From positions 1-32,004 of the forward strand of contig JAJYIU010000033.1 in assembly GCA_021789895.1 (NCBI GenBank): DNA of 32,004 nucleotides, read 5' to 3'. Every line of letters begins with the position of its first letter. Within the stretch, counting starts at the first letter, position 1. Source of the DNA: Acidobacteriota bacterium. GTDB lineage: Bacteria > Acidobacteriota > Terriglobia > Terriglobales > SCQP01. The notes below the pieces were generated by a model. The model saw only the letters and a list, made by a program, of their open reading frames with translations, was not told the origin of the DNA and searched no databases. The position numbers were made by a program, and so were the translations under genes. Of the stretch, positions 9,278 to 26,876 are shown piece after piece.

Positions 9278-9303
9278 AGGGCCTGCAAGAAATTAAAATG
9301 AGC

Positions 9304-9342
9304 GGGCGGGATATCCGGCCCCGGTTGATTTTCAGCCCGCCC
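9304..9342 (+). terminator. Possible terminator hairpin after the flippase-like gene
   Basis: The arms GGGCGGG and CCCGCCC enclose a 25-base loop, 27 bases after the stop codon. No T-run follows, so Rho-independent termination is doubtful. Confidence 0.25.
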
Positions 9343-9497
9343 CAGGCCGTGACGCGAACCACGGTTTGAAACCGCAAGCCAGACTAATTTGTCCATCAGG
9401 CAGCAATGAGTTGGGGTTGCCGGGATGGCGGCTCAACCCTCAGGTGTGCGAGCTTACACCCGCAGGCGTCCGTCAGGGCCCGGCATTTTCAATCGCT

Positions 9498-9512
9498 TGT
9501 GATCACGTCACA
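9498..9512. promoter_or_regulatory. Candidate CRP/FNR-type operator upstream of the porin-cytochrome gene
   Basis: TGTGATCACGTCACA: half-sites TGTGA and TCACA with a 5-base spacer, extendable to TTGTGA/TCACAA. It lies about 170 bases before the proposed GTG start. The canonical CRP spacing is 6, so this is one base short. A similar element with exact spacing stands upstream of the other multihaem gene. Confidence 0.4.
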
Positions 9513-9671
9513 AACTCAATCGCAGCCTGCAACCGGTTGTCATCACTAGCCGGCGATTCCAGCGCCACGCAGAAACTAGACGGTGGTTATATCGCTTCGT
9601 AAACGCTGCGGCTAGATTGAAACGTTTGAACGTGTCCCGCCCCGCAGGCCGCCGGAGGGCATGCGCCGCCA

Positions 9672-9677
9672 AGGAGG
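9672..9677 (+). promoter_or_regulatory. Ribosome binding site deciding a GTG start
   Basis: AGGAGG within AAGGAGGGG (9671-9679) stands 5 nt before an in-frame GTG at 9683. The in-frame ATG at 9698 is 20 nt away and the upstream TTG at 9617 has no such signal. This favours GTG 9683. Confidence 0.6.
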
Positions 9678-9682
9678 GGATT

Positions 9683-12600
9683 GTGCTGGTCAGGGTCATG
9701 CAACCGTGGCTGCGCCGTAATGGCGAGACGAAAGACGGCCCCGGCCACCGCCGCGAACGGCGGACGGGCCGGATCATCCTCATCGGCCTGGCCGCCGCGA
9801 TGGCGGCCTGCCTACTGCCGCTGCGCGCGGCCGCGCGGCAAAGTTACCGCTGGCCGGCGGCCCGCGGCCTGGCGCTGGCGGCGCAGGTGCCCGGGGCGAA
9901 GCGCATCGGCTCGGCCGTCTGCCAAACCTGTCACGCCTCCCTGGCCGGCCGGTTTCAGCACGCCTGGCACGCGCAGCAGGGCGTCCGCTGTGAAGACTGC
10001 CACGGCGGCGGCAGCCTGCATGTGCAGGGTCGCGGCGATGTATCCAAGATCGTCAGCTTTCGCCGCCTGCCGCCGAAATCGGCCAATGCCGTATGCTTGC
10101 GCTGCCATGCCCAGGGCAGCCAAACCCGGCATTGGATCACCGGCGCGCACGCCGCCAACGGGGTGCGCTGCATTGACTGCCACTCGATCCATACGGCCGC
10201 GCCGGCTCGCCCGGGAATGATCGGCGAGACCCTGGAGGCCGGCTATACCGCCTCGGCCGCGTCCATCTCTCCCGATGCCCGCGCCGCGTTTGCCTCCCGC
10301 AGCCGCATGAACGATACCTGCCTGCGCTGCCATCCGCAGCAGCGCGCGCAGCTCAACCTGCCCTATCATCACCCCTTGCGCGAAGCCAAAATAACCTGTG
10401 TGGATTGTCATGATCCGCACGGCGGCGCGGCGGGCAACAACCTGCGCCGGGCCAATGTGAACCAGCTCTGCCTGAGCTGTCATGCGCAATATCGCGGGCC
10501 GTTCGCTTACCAGCATCCGCCGGTCAACGAGAATTGCCTGATTTGCCATCAGCCGCACGGCTCGCAAAACACCAATCTCTTGCGCCTGAGCGAGCCGGCG
10601 CTCTGCCTGCAATGCCATACGGGGCATCACAACGGCGCCAATCTGCCACTCGTGGACCGTTGTACCGACTGTCACGGCTCGATTCATGGCAGCGACGTGC
10701 CGACCGCCTCGGGCGGCAGCCGGTTCGTAGATAAAGGCGCGAATGGCGTTCCCCAGGTGCCACCGCAGCATGCGCTGGCTATCCCGATCGCGGCGCGGGG
10801 AGCCCTGCGCGCCGCCTACGCCTATGCCAGCGCCGGCCTGCCATCCGCCTCAGCGCCGGCCGCCGGGCCAGCGTACTCCGCCGCCCTGCCTGCCCTGGCC
10901 GGCGGCAACGCGACGGAAATGCTGATGATGCGCTTCCTTGCCGGGCAAACGTCCGCTCCGCCGCAGGCGGCCGCGGCCGATCCCGCCGCCAGCGCCTTTG
11001 CGCTTTCCTTCAGCCCGGCGCAATACCGCTTCGTGGATCTTTCCGGATTTGGCGGCCGGGTGGGCGAATACGACAGCCTGCAGGAATCGGCCGGCGGCAC
11101 CCTGGCTTCCAGCTTCGTCTCGCCCGCGCACAAACTGACGCTGCTCTCGCGCGTTGACCTGCTCACCGGCAACGATTATCGCGTCAGCTCGCAATTGAAC
11201 CTGGGCCGCCGCCTCGATGCCGCCTTCGACCTGCGCAGCCTGGTGCAGCATCAGGATAACTACCCGTTCTATTCCAACGTCATCTCGCCCGACATCATTA
11301 CCGATCAAAGCATTCCCGCCGGCGCGCTGTTTGCCGTGACCCGCCGCCTGGGCAACGCGCACGCCCGGCTGAAACTGCCCGGCGTGCCGGTATATGTCTT
11401 CGCGCGCGGCAACTGGCAGGCGCGCGAAGGCACCTCCCAAGCGGCCTGGCTGGACGAAAGCGACCCCAGCGCCGATCCCACCGCCTGCACCAATTGCCAT
11501 TACCACTCGCGTTTCCAGCCGGTGAATCAGACCACGCGCACCGTCACCGCCGGCGCCGAAATCCGCCTGCCTCAAGTGAACCTGACCTGGGAACATGCCT
11601 ATAGCAGCTTCAACGATCGCCTGGCCTATCCCAACGCCTTTTTTGGCGGCTTCTTTACTCCCAATGAGCCGGTTCCGGTTCCCGTGCCCTCGACCCCGCC
11701 CGGCGTCTATTCTTTCGATATTCCCGCCGATAATCGCTCGAACACCGACACCGCACGCCTGAACTGGACGCCTTCCAGCCAGGTGACGTTCGACGGCAAT
11801 GCGCTCGATACCCGCGGCCGCGACATCTTCACCGGCAACCGCCAGAATATCTTCGATGCGTCGAACACCCTGGACTGGCAACCCGATCGCCGCCTGAAAC
11901 TGCTCTTCGACTACCGCCAGCAGAATCTGGTCAACGATTTCGTCCCTTATTTCAATCTCTACGGCAATGTCTCCTACCACGAGCATTGGGCCGGCGCGCG
12001 ACTGCATTATGCCCTGACGCACAGCCTGGAGCTGGTCACGCAATACGAGCGCAACGGCATCACCCGCTCCAACGCCTTCCTCTGGCCGCAGATCTACGAC
12101 ATTGACAATACCGATCCGCTGCATGTCGTGCCCAAGTCCTGGTCGAATACCGTCAGCCTCGGCCTGCGCTTTCATCCCCGGCATTTATGGAGCGCGCGCG
12201 CCGGCTACGCCTTTACCGGCACGCACGATCCCGGCTACCTGGTGGTGCCCGGCAGCAATAACCGCGTTTATGCCGACCTCTCGCTCTTCCCCGCCAGTTG
12301 GATCGTCTTCAGCAACGACGCCAGCTTCATCTTTCAAAATGCCTTCGCCGCCGTGCCGTTGCCCAATACCCCCGGCGATTTCCAGCGCCGCAATCGCTTC
12401 TATAACGAGACGGCCGCGCTTTCCCTGCTCTTCCAGCCCAATTGGAACTTCGATCTCGGCTACTCCTATCAGCAGAACCTGCTGAATACCTATATGGGGT
12501 TGCAGAACGATGCCGGCGTCAACTACGTCCTGGATGAGCCTTTCGTGCCGTATAACCAGCTCAATCAATCGTATTGGGCGCGGTTCGGAACCCATCTGCT

Positions 12601-12955
12601 CGACCGCCGGCTGCTTTGGAACGCGCAGGTTACCTACAATTCCGCCCGCAGCGGGATGACTCCCGACCTCAATCCCGCCCATGCCGCGCAACTCGGCAAT
12701 GCCGCCCTCATCCAGCAGGGGGTATTCGATCCAGTGGCGTTCGGCCAGGCGCTGGACGCGCTGCAACTGGGCTCGACCGCCGTTTCCCAGGTGCTCGTGC
12801 CCGAATGGATCGGGTCGTCCAAGCTCACTTACCGCTTGCCGGAAGGATTTTTTAGCGGCTTATTGTTCTACTACGGCAGCTATAAGGATTATCTGAATCC
12901 CGGGCTCAACGGCGATTTGAGGACTTTTACCCTTTATCTCGGCAAGACCTGGTAA
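9683..12955 (+). CDS. Fused decahaem cytochrome-outer membrane porin (DmsE/MtrA + MtrB-like)
   Basis: Proposed single-polypeptide electron conduit across the outer membrane, 1090 residues from GTG 9683. A basic N-terminus and hydrophobic helix (about 31-50) form a Sec signal. Ten CxxCH haem motifs begin at Cys80, 103, 138, 163, 213, 239, 263, 285, 308 and 327, with the spacing and linker motifs of DmsE/MtrA decahaem cytochromes (LNLPYHHPLRE, CVDCHDPHGG, CLICHQPHGS). An Ala/Pro-rich linker (about 340-435) leads to about 650 residues of alternating beta-strands with aromatic girdles resembling MtrB/PioB porins (FGGRVGEYDS near 456-465). It ends in Trp, as outer-membrane barrels do. An eleventh motif, CTNCH, begins at residue 602 inside the barrel part. 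MtrA and MtrB are normally separate proteins. No partner surface cytochrome gene is adjacent. Electron direction is unknown. Confidence 0.88.
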   Translation: MLVRVMQPWLRRNGETKDGPGHRRERRTGRIILIGLAAAMAACLLPLRAAARQSYRWPAARGLALAAQVPGAKRIGSAVCQTCHASLAGRFQHAWHAQQGVRCEDCHGGGSLHVQGRGDVSKIVSFRRLPPKSANAVCLRCHAQGSQTRHWITGAHAANGVRCIDCHSIHTAAPARPGMIGETLEAGYTASAASISPDARAAFASRSRMNDTCLRCHPQQRAQLNLPYHHPLREAKITCVDCHDPHGGAAGNNLRRANVNQLCLSCHAQYRGPFAYQHPPVNENCLICHQPHGSQNTNLLRLSEPALCLQCHTGHHNGANLPLVDRCTDCHGSIHGSDVPTASGGSRFVDKGANGVPQVPPQHALAIPIAARGALRAAYAYASAGLPSASAPAAGPAYSAALPALAGGNATEMLMMRFLAGQTSAPPQAAAADPAASAFALSFSPAQYRFVDLSGFGGRVGEYDSLQESAGGTLASSFVSPAHKLTLLSRVDLLTGNDYRVSSQLNLGRRLDAAFDLRSLVQHQDNYPFYSNVISPDIITDQSIPAGALFAVTRRLGNAHARLKLPGVPVYVFARGNWQAREGTSQAAWLDESDPSADPTACTNCHYHSRFQPVNQTTRTVTAGAEIRLPQVNLTWEHAYSSFNDRLAYPNAFFGGFFTPNEPVPVPVPSTPPGVYSFDIPADNRSNTDTARLNWTPSSQVTFDGNALDTRGRDIFTGNRQNIFDASNTLDWQPDRRLKLLFDYRQQNLVNDFVPYFNLYGNVSYHEHWAGARLHYALTHSLELVTQYERNGITRSNAFLWPQIYDIDNTDPLHVVPKSWSNTVSLGLRFHPRHLWSARAGYAFTGTHDPGYLVVPGSNNRVYADLSLFPASWIVFSNDASFIFQNAFAAVPLPNTPGDFQRRNRFYNETAALSLLFQPNWNFDLGYSYQQNLLNTYMGLQNDAGVNYVLDEPFVPYNQLNQSYWARFGTHLLDRRLLWNAQVTYNSARSGMTPDLNPAHAAQLGNAALIQQGVFDPVAFGQALDALQLGSTAVSQVLVPEWIGSSKLTYRLPEGFFSGLLFYYGSYKDYLNPGLNGDLRTFTLYLGKTW

Positions 12956-12971
12956 GTCCAGTCCGGCCGCC

Positions 12972-13000
12972 GCCGGGGTGCGGCCGCGCCGCACCCCGGC
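12972..13000. terminator. Hairpin between convergent genes, likely bidirectional terminator
   Basis: A perfect 10-bp stem, GCCGGGGTGC (12972-12981) and GCACCCCGGC (12991-13000), with a 9-base loop lies 17 bases after the porin-cytochrome stop and 18 bases after the end of the convergent lipoprotein gene. There is no T-run. Confidence 0.5.
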
Positions 13001-13017
13001 TCGACCCAAACCCGCGG

Positions 13018-14442
13018 TTAATCGCCGCTTTCCGGCGTTTCCGGCGCTTCCGGCTGCGAGATGACGGCGGCGTAGAAGGTGAAGTTGCCGCTCGTATCCT
13101 TCAGCAGGAATCCGTTGACGTTGAGCGCCGTGCCGGCCGCGGTGGAAGCAAACCCGGAGGCGCTGAGCGTATCGCCATAAATCGTATTGGCGTTGGCGGC
13201 CACGTTCAGCGTCATTAGCTGCAGATAGGTGGTCAGGTAGGAGCTGCTCGCCAGTTGCAGCGTGAAGCTATAGTTCGGCGCCGAGCCCAGCGGCGCGGCG
13301 GCGAGCTGTCCGGAAGCGGTTTCGGGCGCCAAGTCCACTTCCTGCGCCCCGATTGCCGCCGTGCCGGTGGTCGTGCCCAGCACGATCACTGACTGGCCGG
13401 GAAAGATTTCGGCGTTGGTGAATTGCGCCGCAGTCAGGCCGTCCATCGCGGCAAAGGTAGAAACGTTATAGATGGTGCTGGAATCGAGGCTGACGGTCAG
13501 CGGCTGCCCGTCGCCGGACCCGCCGAATTCCTCGCGCGGCGCCAGGGTAAAGCTGGTCACCGCGCCGGAGTTGTCGGTGGTGACCGCGGTCACGGTGCCC
13601 GCCGCGCCCTGCTGCGAGGCATTCTCGCCCGCGCCCGCCATTTCAGCGCCGATCTCGGTGGCCAGCAGGCTACCGTCGCTTTCGATCACGCCATGCACTT
13701 CGACGATGGCGTTGGTCTGGATCGCGGCCAGGGTGAGCGCATCTTCAAACTGAGTGGAGCTGTTGATGGCGAAGGTGAAGCTGTCGCCGGAATCGGCGGA
13801 TTGGACTACGATCGCGGTCGGGCTGACGGAAACCACCGAGCCGGTGACCTCGACTTCCTTGTCGCCGCTGTCTTCCGCATCCACCTTCGCGGCGGCGGTG
13901 CTGAGCGCGGGTGTAAAGCTCAAACTGTTGTTGGTCAGATCGAACGATTGCGCCAGGTTGAAATCCAGTTGCAGCTCCAGGCCATCCTCGGTCGTCACCG
14001 ACAAGGCGGGATTCAGGGCAACCGTCACCGTCGGCTGGATCAGGGTGGCCGTCGCGGTCACGGTTTGTCCGCTGCCGTTGACGTAGGTGGCCGAGGCGGC
14101 GCTGACTGTCAGCGTCAGCGAGCTGTAATCGCCCATGGGAATATCGTCCAGCTCCAGCGGCTCGCGCGTGGCGCCCAGGCCGGATAACTCGACCGTGCGC
14201 GCATGCGAGAGCAGCGCCACCGTGCCGCTGCCATTGCTCAGGCTGAGGGCGGAGATTGTGACCTTGGCGGCGAGAATATTGCTGAGCGGCGCGTCGCCGA
14301 CCGTGACCAGCATCGGCGCCTTTGCCCCGGCGCCGGAGTTCAAATTAGAGCCCGAGGCCGCCGACCCGCCGCATCCGGCCAACCCGAAAACGGTAAGCCC
14401 CAATACGCTCAGTGCGAGCCCGGTAACGATTTGACGTCGCAT
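13018..14442 (-). CDS. DUF4382-type lipoprotein with DUF5666-like repeats
   Basis: A 474-residue predicted lipoprotein. The signal peptide ends in lipobox LAGC with Cys24, then a Gly/Ser-rich linker. The first domain (about 45-190) resembles DUF4382: VTVGDAPLSNILAAKVTIS, later ELDDIPMGDYSSLTLTV. The remainder contains repeated beta modules like DUF5666 (VTGSVVSVSPTAIVVQSADSG; GAAGTVTAVTTDNSGAVTSFTL), each ending in a statement such as VEVHGVI or VIVLGTT. It is acidic and probably sits in the periplasm or on the surface. Start ATG 14442 has AGGAGG seven bases upstream, preferred over in-frame extensions. It is convergent with the porin-cytochrome gene. Function is unknown. Confidence 0.82.
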   Translation of the reverse strand: MRRQIVTGLALSVLGLTVFGLAGCGGSAASGSNLNSGAGAKAPMLVTVGDAPLSNILAAKVTISALSLSNGSGTVALLSHARTVELSGLGATREPLELDDIPMGDYSSLTLTVSAASATYVNGSGQTVTATATLIQPTVTVALNPALSVTTEDGLELQLDFNLAQSFDLTNNSLSFTPALSTAAAKVDAEDSGDKEVEVTGSVVSVSPTAIVVQSADSGDSFTFAINSSTQFEDALTLAAIQTNAIVEVHGVIESDGSLLATEIGAEMAGAGENASQQGAAGTVTAVTTDNSGAVTSFTLAPREEFGGSGDGQPLTVSLDSSTIYNVSTFAAMDGLTAAQFTNAEIFPGQSVIVLGTTTGTAAIGAQEVDLAPETASGQLAAAPLGSAPNYSFTLQLASSSYLTTYLQLMTLNVAANANTIYGDTLSASGFASTAAGTALNVNGFLLKDTSGNFTFYAAVISQPEAPETPESGD

Positions 14443-14692
14443 CTTCTGTCCTCCTCTGGCGCCGCGGGGGCGAGACACACCGCCGCCTTCCCGCGGGCCG
14501 GCCAATTTTGCAGCAACTCTGGGGCCAAGCCGCCGGCAAAGATTAAGTCATTGATTTACCGGGCTGTGAGAAATCCGGCCAATCTTGATTGCCGGCGATT
14601 GACTCGCCGCCAGATCGTTTCGTTCACCTTTAAGGAAGAAAGTACCCACCCCGGCGTTCGCCGCCGGCCGCGGTCCCGCCCGGCAACAAATC

Positions 14693-25593: not shown

Positions 25594-26772
25594 CTATCCC
25601 GGATACCCCTGCCCGGGACGCACGATCCGGATCAGGTGGTCGGCGAAACGCGCATGCGCGCCGGGCAGCGCCAGCTTGGGCATGTGGCAGGTCACGCAAT
25701 TTTTTTGCGCCACCGGGCACGCCCGCCCGGGCTTGCCGGCGCTGGCGCGTTCACCCGGATGGCGATGGCAGGCCAGGCACTTGGGGTCATACCAGGCGGC
25801 GCGCTTCACCAGCGGTTGATGTGGATCGTGGCAGGCCAGGCAACTGATGCGGCTGTCAATCGGATTCCAGCACAGGCTGAGCGCCAGGCGGTAGGGCTGG
25901 AAGCGTATATCCACGATCCCGGTAACGCCCATGTTGAACACCATCTCCGGCGTGCGATGGCAGGAACCACAAAAATCCAGCACCCCGCCGGCATTCAACT
26001 TGCCGGGATTGTAAATGTGCGCCCGCGCGTATTCATGCGCGCGCATCGCCGCCACATGCGCCGAGCCGGGGCCATGGCATCCCTCGCAGGTGACGCCGGC
26101 GGCGGCCTGGCTTGCATGGAACACCCCGCCGCGATAGCTGCCGGTGGTATGGCAGACAAAGCACTTGCGGGTCTCGTCCGGTCCCAGTTGGCGGCCCAAG
26201 GCCTCCGGCAGACTGGCCGGCAGCGGGGCATCGCCCATGGTATAGGCGAGCCGCCGGACCTGGGTGTAGTAGCTGATGCGGCCTTCGTAAAAATTTTTCC
26301 CGCTGCGGTAAACAAACGTCTGCGCCAGCACGCCCTGCCCGAACCCCCACAGCAGCGGCGCCGATACCGTGCGCCCGCCGCGGGTCACGCTGTAGATGAC
26401 CTGCTTGCCCGCGCGCGCGAATTGAAAACGGTCGCCGCCGAAACTGGCCGCGAGCGGACGGCGCAGATGCGGTGATGCGGCCGCCGGCTGCGACGCCAGC
26501 GCCATCGGGGTCTGGAGTTCCCGGGCCTCATAGCGATGGCAGGTGACGCATACCTGCGCGCCCACGTAGTGCAGCCCCGCCGGCCCGCCCTGCTTGGGCC
26601 GCCAGCGCGGGCTGAAATCCCGCGCCCCGGCCGGCGGCTTGCTAGCCGCGCCTGCCGCTTGCCCGCGCAGGTGCGCGCCGCTCGCCAACAGCATGCCACC
26701 CAGCCAGGCCGCCGCCAGCCCGGCGGCGGCGTGGCGCCGGCATCTCTGAAAGTTCCCCGCCCTCCGTTTCAT
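25594..26772 (-). CDS. Exported seven-haem c-type cytochrome
   Basis: A periplasmic or outer-surface multihaem protein, 392 residues from ATG 26772. A basic N-terminus and a hydrophobic stretch (about 16-35) form a signal peptide. Seven CxxCH motifs start at Cys75, 204, 229, 268, 311, 332 and 359. Between the first and second haem is a non-haem beta-rich domain (about 95-190; GQGVLAQTFVYRSGKNFYEG, then SYYTQ). The end, CVTCHMPKLALPGAHARFADHLIRI, matches the c-552/c-554-like family that binds haem in this way. It could carry electrons to or from the fused porin-cytochrome, which is encoded 13 kb away. In-frame starts at 26793 and 26829 are possible. A CRP-like site lies about 105 bp upstream. 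Confidence 0.9.
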   Translation of the reverse strand: MKRRAGNFQRCRRHAAAGLAAAWLGGMLLASGAHLRGQAAGAASKPPAGARDFSPRWRPKQGGPAGLHYVGAQVCVTCHRYEARELQTPMALASQPAAASPHLRRPLAASFGGDRFQFARAGKQVIYSVTRGGRTVSAPLLWGFGQGVLAQTFVYRSGKNFYEGRISYYTQVRRLAYTMGDAPLPASLPEALGRQLGPDETRKCFVCHTTGSYRGGVFHASQAAAGVTCEGCHGPGSAHVAAMRAHEYARAHIYNPGKLNAGGVLDFCGSCHRTPEMVFNMGVTGIVDIRFQPYRLALSLCWNPIDSRISCLACHDPHQPLVKRAAWYDPKCLACHRHPGERASAGKPGRACPVAQKNCVTCHMPKLALPGAHARFADHLIRIVRPGQGYPG

Positions 26773-26876
26773 CCCTGTGCCGGCAAAATGCATCGCGGAT
26801 TCATTACGAATTGCCGGCCGCAAGGTCACTGCCGGCGCGGCGGCCGGCCGCAGTTTTTACATAATTAACATCGCGT

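Follow-up and report, generated by a model that had tools for sequence, protein, structure and literature searches.

The 32,004-nucleotide stretch of DNA analysed here (the window) comes from a soil-type acidobacterium and contains a gene in which a decahaem cytochrome and a porin are fused (Table 1). Judging from its sequence and from structure models, the gene probably encodes an outer-membrane electron conduit of the MtrAB type made of one polypeptide. In the accessible literature, multihaem outer-membrane conduits are complexes of separate proteins, and a single-chain version is new there. The openly searchable literature, with subscription papers outside it, describes no decahaem–barrel fusion, only one-haem fusions of the Cyc2 type, and a survey of Mtr systems contains no word beginning with 'fus' (PMC8805035).

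Table 1. Features of the fused gene and its surroundings, in window positions
Feature	Positions	Strand	Basis
Fused gene, 1090 aa: signal peptide, decahaem domain, linker, predicted 26-strand barrel	9683..12955	+	One open frame; 22 other intact fused relatives
Ribosome-binding site AAGGAGG	9671..9677	+	Read from sequence; makes GTG 9683 the probable start
N-terminal signal sequence, residues 1-51, cleavage near AAA|RQ	9683..9835	+	By inspection
MtrA/DmsE/GSU2203-type decahaem domain, ten CxxCH	9836..10732	+	TIGR03508, NF041028, 6r2q_A matches; His conservation
Linker, 96 aa, 54% Ala/Pro/Gly, from cytochrome C-terminus to barrel strand 1	10733..11020	+	67-118 aa in 23 fused proteins
Predicted 26-strand MtrB-like beta-barrel ending in Trp	11021..12952	+	AF2 model; MtrB top fold match; NF041027 E 4e-18
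Eleventh haem motif CTNCH, barrel loop 7->8, predicted extracellular	11486..11500	+	Conservation in 34/34 barrels; loop parity in model
Segment with fused gene; ~80 bp instead in congener G001, flanks collinear	9278..13017	.	Comparison with G001

The cytochrome and the porin share one reading frame

The frame (9617-12955) contains no internal stop codon between TTG 9617 and the stop codon at 12955, and its third-position GC content is high throughout. The candidate start codons are TTG 9617, GTG 9683 and ATG 9698, of which GTG 9683 is preferred because a ribosome-binding site precedes it. The other fused proteins have signal peptides of about 25–30 residues at the same place. A first-pass annotation of the window had described an uninterrupted frame with ten CxxCH motifs and a barrel part ending in Trp, as found here, and had proposed a survey of homologues for the same fusion. 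The survey, which combined a barrel scan with whole-genome searches, gathered 23 intact fused sequences including that of the window, all from Acidobacteriota and with two near-identical pairs among them. The frame is unbroken in the 22 additional sequences, which share about 44–70% identity and rule out a frameshift, an assembly fault or chance as its origin. The cytochrome–porin fusion in one frame is real.

The N-terminal part is an MtrA-like decahaem cytochrome

The ten CxxCH motifs are located at residues 80–331 of the GTG form (9920-10675), and the profile TIGR03508, suggested as a check at first pass, matches the N-terminal part with 203 bits, above its cut-off of 192.2; the domain thus has both hallmarks of DmsE/MtrA decahaem cytochromes. 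The match to the GSU2203 family (NF041028) has an E-value of 4e-70 and, at 236 bits, lies below the cut-off of 325. The closest relative in the PDB is chain A of 6R2Q (E 1e-37), which is MtrA of the Mtr complex; the copy of the structure used here names the molecule wrongly. Ten proximal histidines and at least ten further ones are kept across fused, split and far-split proteins.

The C-terminal part is predicted to be a 26-strand barrel of the MtrB fold

The AF2 model of the barrel domain, calculated with 27 relatives, has a mean pLDDT of 70 and contains 26 strands. The turns from even- to odd-numbered strands are 2–5 residues long and the odd-to-even loops are mostly long; therefore, both ends of the barrel would be periplasmic. 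MtrB has the same number of strands and likewise carries its short turns on one face and mostly long loops on the opposite one (PMC7198977). A Foldseek search with the barrel model alone ranked MtrB (6r2q_B) first (E 1.7e-14, TM 0.63), and VIA-align superimposed the two with Z 20.1 over 527 residues at 4.0 Å, the runner-up having Z 15.9. The barrel-like character claimed for this part at first pass is borne out by the 26-strand model, for which MtrB is the best match among solved barrels.

The relative was found by fold comparison alone; searching the PDB with the barrel sequence returned nothing. Pfam gave no significant match for the C-terminal part. The GSU2204 profile NF041027 is the best match for all 27 barrels of this clade; on the window barrel the match is partial, and its 65 bits are far below the cut-off of 350. 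The MtrB/PioB profile TIGR03509, also proposed at first pass, left the window barrel unmatched, as did PF11854; the two gave weak matches in 2 and 8 of the 27 relatives, respectively. A TIGR03509 search of the whole genome gave no match, and the controls were without a match as well. Structure prediction of the full chain, another proposed check, was run without haem and with 21 sequences (mean pLDDT 48, pTM 0.39). MtrB was again the best fold match, but the cytochrome was left unfolded and was not placed in the barrel.

The barrel carries an eleventh haem motif

The Cys, Cys and His of the eleventh motif occur without exception in the 34 barrels compared, fused and split, including those from other families of the phylum; a CXXCH inside the barrel protein is a mark of GSU2203/GSU2204 systems. 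The motif reads CXXCH or CXXXCH, and CX3CH occurs in many fused proteins. The strand parity of the model predicts that loop 7->8, itself modelled with low confidence, lies on the outer side of the barrel. The motif is also present in split barrels of the GSU2203/GSU2204 type and is therefore older than the fusion; on this conservation, the putative barrel haem is long-standing in barrels of the GSU2204 kind and did not arise with the fusion. The fused gene draws attention to this little-noticed barrel-bound haem. The conserved extra histidine H315 was considered as a ligand of haem 11 and dropped; DmsE proteins carry a displaced histidine there.

Relationship to known cytochrome–porin systems

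The comparison with Mtr, Pio and Mto made at first pass identified the right kind of system, a decahaem cytochrome with a porin, but the nearest named families are GSU2203/GSU2204 and not Mtr/Pio proper. In GSU2203 (OmcK) and GSU2204 of Geobacter and in the split Acidobacteriota homologues, a decahaem cytochrome is followed by a barrel with one CXXCH, as in the fused protein. However, these are two genes, whereas here there is one chain with a linker, and the scores stay below both curated cut-offs (NF041028, NF041027). MtrAB, PioAB and MtoAB share the ten-haem MtrA-like domain and the 26-strand MtrB-like barrel with the fused protein, but they are separate proteins, and the fused gene has the additional haem motif in its barrel and no adjacent gene for a surface cytochrome. 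The separate adjacent genes typical of MtrAB occur only in sister groups of the window gene. We do not assign the gene to MtrAB or GSU2203/GSU2204 as defined, because its two parts lie in one frame and its scores stay below the curated cut-offs for the barrel. Cyc2 and Cyc572 also combine an N-terminal cytochrome and a porin in one chain, but with a single haem and about 17 barrel strands (PMC10654088), against ten plus one haem motifs and 26 strands here; the single haem in an N-terminal plug and the small porin of Cyc2 are not those of the fused gene. Its domains and modelled fold indicate that the fused protein most likely works in the way of MtrAB; its nearest named kin are the GSU2203/GSU2204 pairs, whose transcripts in Geobacter are up with haematite and magnetite (PMC4070692).

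Distribution and origin of the fusion

A scan for the barrel in about 85,000 species genomes identified 29 loci, all in Acidobacteriota. Within the order, the barrel is present in 28 of 397 genomes, where it is part of a fusion, a separate gene or truncated at the end of a contig. The two parts are neighbouring separate genes at six loci; in the five split pairs measured, the gap is 32–40 nt and the barrel protein starts with a signal peptide of its own. The remoter pairs (L105, L107-L110) are also split. One of them, L105:2900-5382, from another family of the phylum, has a 4-nt overlap between the cytochrome and barrel frames, and a gene pair arranged in this way could easily become fused. 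Two loci of one MAG were rejected as separate-gene cases, since a frameshift interrupts L073 at haem 10 and L095 contains a run of N.

The barrel tree groups all fused forms (81/98) and places the split ones outside. In the tree of the cytochrome domain, split forms fall among the fused ones, a placement with little support; on a tree with DmsE outgroups, one clade of all fused forms was not rejected (p 0.067). By the sequences compared, the fusion belongs to an Acidobacteriota clade that has split sister pairs. The simplest interpretation is a single fusion event in an ancestor with separate genes, and a later fission in one clade is possible. According to a published proposal, MtoAB and PioAB arose later, from fused cytochrome-porins of which Cyc2 is one (PMC10654088); here, a two-gene conduit would have become a fused one, which is the opposite direction.

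The fused gene stands alone in its locus

No MtrC-like or OmcA/MtrC-family gene adjoins the fused gene, in agreement with the first-pass annotation, and the locus is in this respect not an MtrCAB cluster. Across the loci, no conserved neighbour or operon partner was found, and the locus offers no partner that would point to a substrate. In the congener G001, the flippase-like, DUF5666 and Era-like GTPase genes are collinear with those of the window, and about 80 bp replace the 3.7 kb present here. The fused gene is absent from all 13 other genomes of the family examined. This distribution suggests that it was gained as a single gene, and loss elsewhere is possible. The window also encodes a DUF4382/DUF5666 protein, likely exported (13018-14505, minus strand), which is conserved in family members without the fused gene and is therefore not a dedicated partner.

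Proposed mechanism of electron transfer

Based on the predicted structure and on the solved Mtr complex, a mode of action can be proposed. Sec would export the chain, and in the periplasm the N-terminal domain would receive ten haems and the barrel loop a single one. The 26-strand barrel at the C-terminus would be inserted by Bam so that it encloses the tethered cytochrome. Haems 1 to 10 would form a wire across the membrane that starts in the periplasm with haem 1 and ends close to the outer mouth with haem 10, and haem 11 on the extracellular barrel loop would probably extend this wire to the surface. Haem 11 may serve as the exit or entry haem and replace an MtrC-like protein. The flexible linker would run from the outward-facing C-terminus of the cytochrome to the periplasmic start of the barrel. 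The full form of this proposal is plausible, if somewhat less likely than not: a complete eleven-haem single-chain conduit, mobile between genomes as one gene, with an extracellular exit haem on the barrel that makes a surface cytochrome unnecessary and a linker that threads back beside the cytochrome through the lumen. A natural single-chain conduit makes it possible to test on a single gene how Bam brings a barrel together with a haem-loaded domain, and it would provide a fixed 1:1 module transferable to laboratory hosts.

We have a mild preference for electron flow outward, to Fe(III) or humics. Flow in the opposite sense, with Fe(II) or some other external donor feeding the same conduit as in Pio and Mto, is a realistic though less likely alternative; it concerns direction only and is compatible with the favoured explanation. 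PioAB and MtoAB of iron oxidisers work without an adjacent MtrC-like gene (PMC5566968), as would the fused protein, and the isolate names of several host MAGs hint at acidic peat, permafrost or mine sites. However, the genome also has a gene for a candidate quinol dehydrogenase of the NapC/NirT type, which contains five haem motifs, and GSU2203/GSU2204, the closest relatives that have been characterised, come from an iron reducer; neither point settles the direction.

The linkers of the 23 fused proteins are 67–118 residues long, none shorter, consist of 34–54% Ala/Pro/Gly and begin at the exact end point of the split cytochromes, which in the five pairs measured end in GGSKFIDK where the fused proteins continue with GGSRFVDKGP. 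The cytochrome of MtrAB has its N-terminus in the periplasm and its C-terminus pointing to the outside (PMC7198977). An MtrAB-like placement would give the C-terminus of the decahaem domain the same orientation, and the barrel starts in the periplasm; therefore, the linker must recross the membrane or be cut. The long dimension of the MtrB barrel is about 70 Å, and 67–118 residues are long enough for a return path inside the barrel. By analogy, the small solvent channel beside the first MtrB strands is a conceivable path. Cleavage within the linker by signal peptidase or another protease would spare it this run through the lumen and give an ordinary two-subunit MtrAB, in which the fusion merely fixes 1:1 synthesis and delivery. 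The linkers are variable, rich in Ala/Pro/Gly and prone to proteolysis. Nearly all of them contain one mildly hydrophobic stretch of small residues (15-residue hydropathy 1.0–1.9), perhaps a relic of the signal peptide that split barrels have. However, this stretch is weak for a signal sequence, the linker alignment shows no conserved cleavage motif, and the frame through the linker is maintained in 23 of 23 intact fused proteins, so that we consider cleavage unlikely. It is very improbable that the decahaem domain is tethered in the periplasm outside the barrel, which would then be a pore or a haem-bearing surface receptor: the full-chain model leaves the domain unplaced and plugging needs the doubled-back linker, but both halves match the partners of a solved plugged complex and even the shortest linker is ample for the return.

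Other multihaem cytochrome genes

The same genome contains a separate DmsE decahaem cytochrome gene followed by a frame of about 830 residues (L031:8194-11731, G000:C17); the latter has no NCBIfam match and is presumably the barrel of that cytochrome. The window further encodes a heptahaem cytochrome with seven CxxCH motifs, located between HisRS-like and AspRS-like genes (25597-26829, minus strand). It has relatives in 14 of 60 genomes searched and a second copy on G000:C15, and no link to the fused gene was seen. In two relatives from the order (L035:2608-13327 and L036:9287-18003), a decahaem cytochrome gene is followed by genes for 19-haem and 11-haem cytochromes, forming a rich multihaem cluster.
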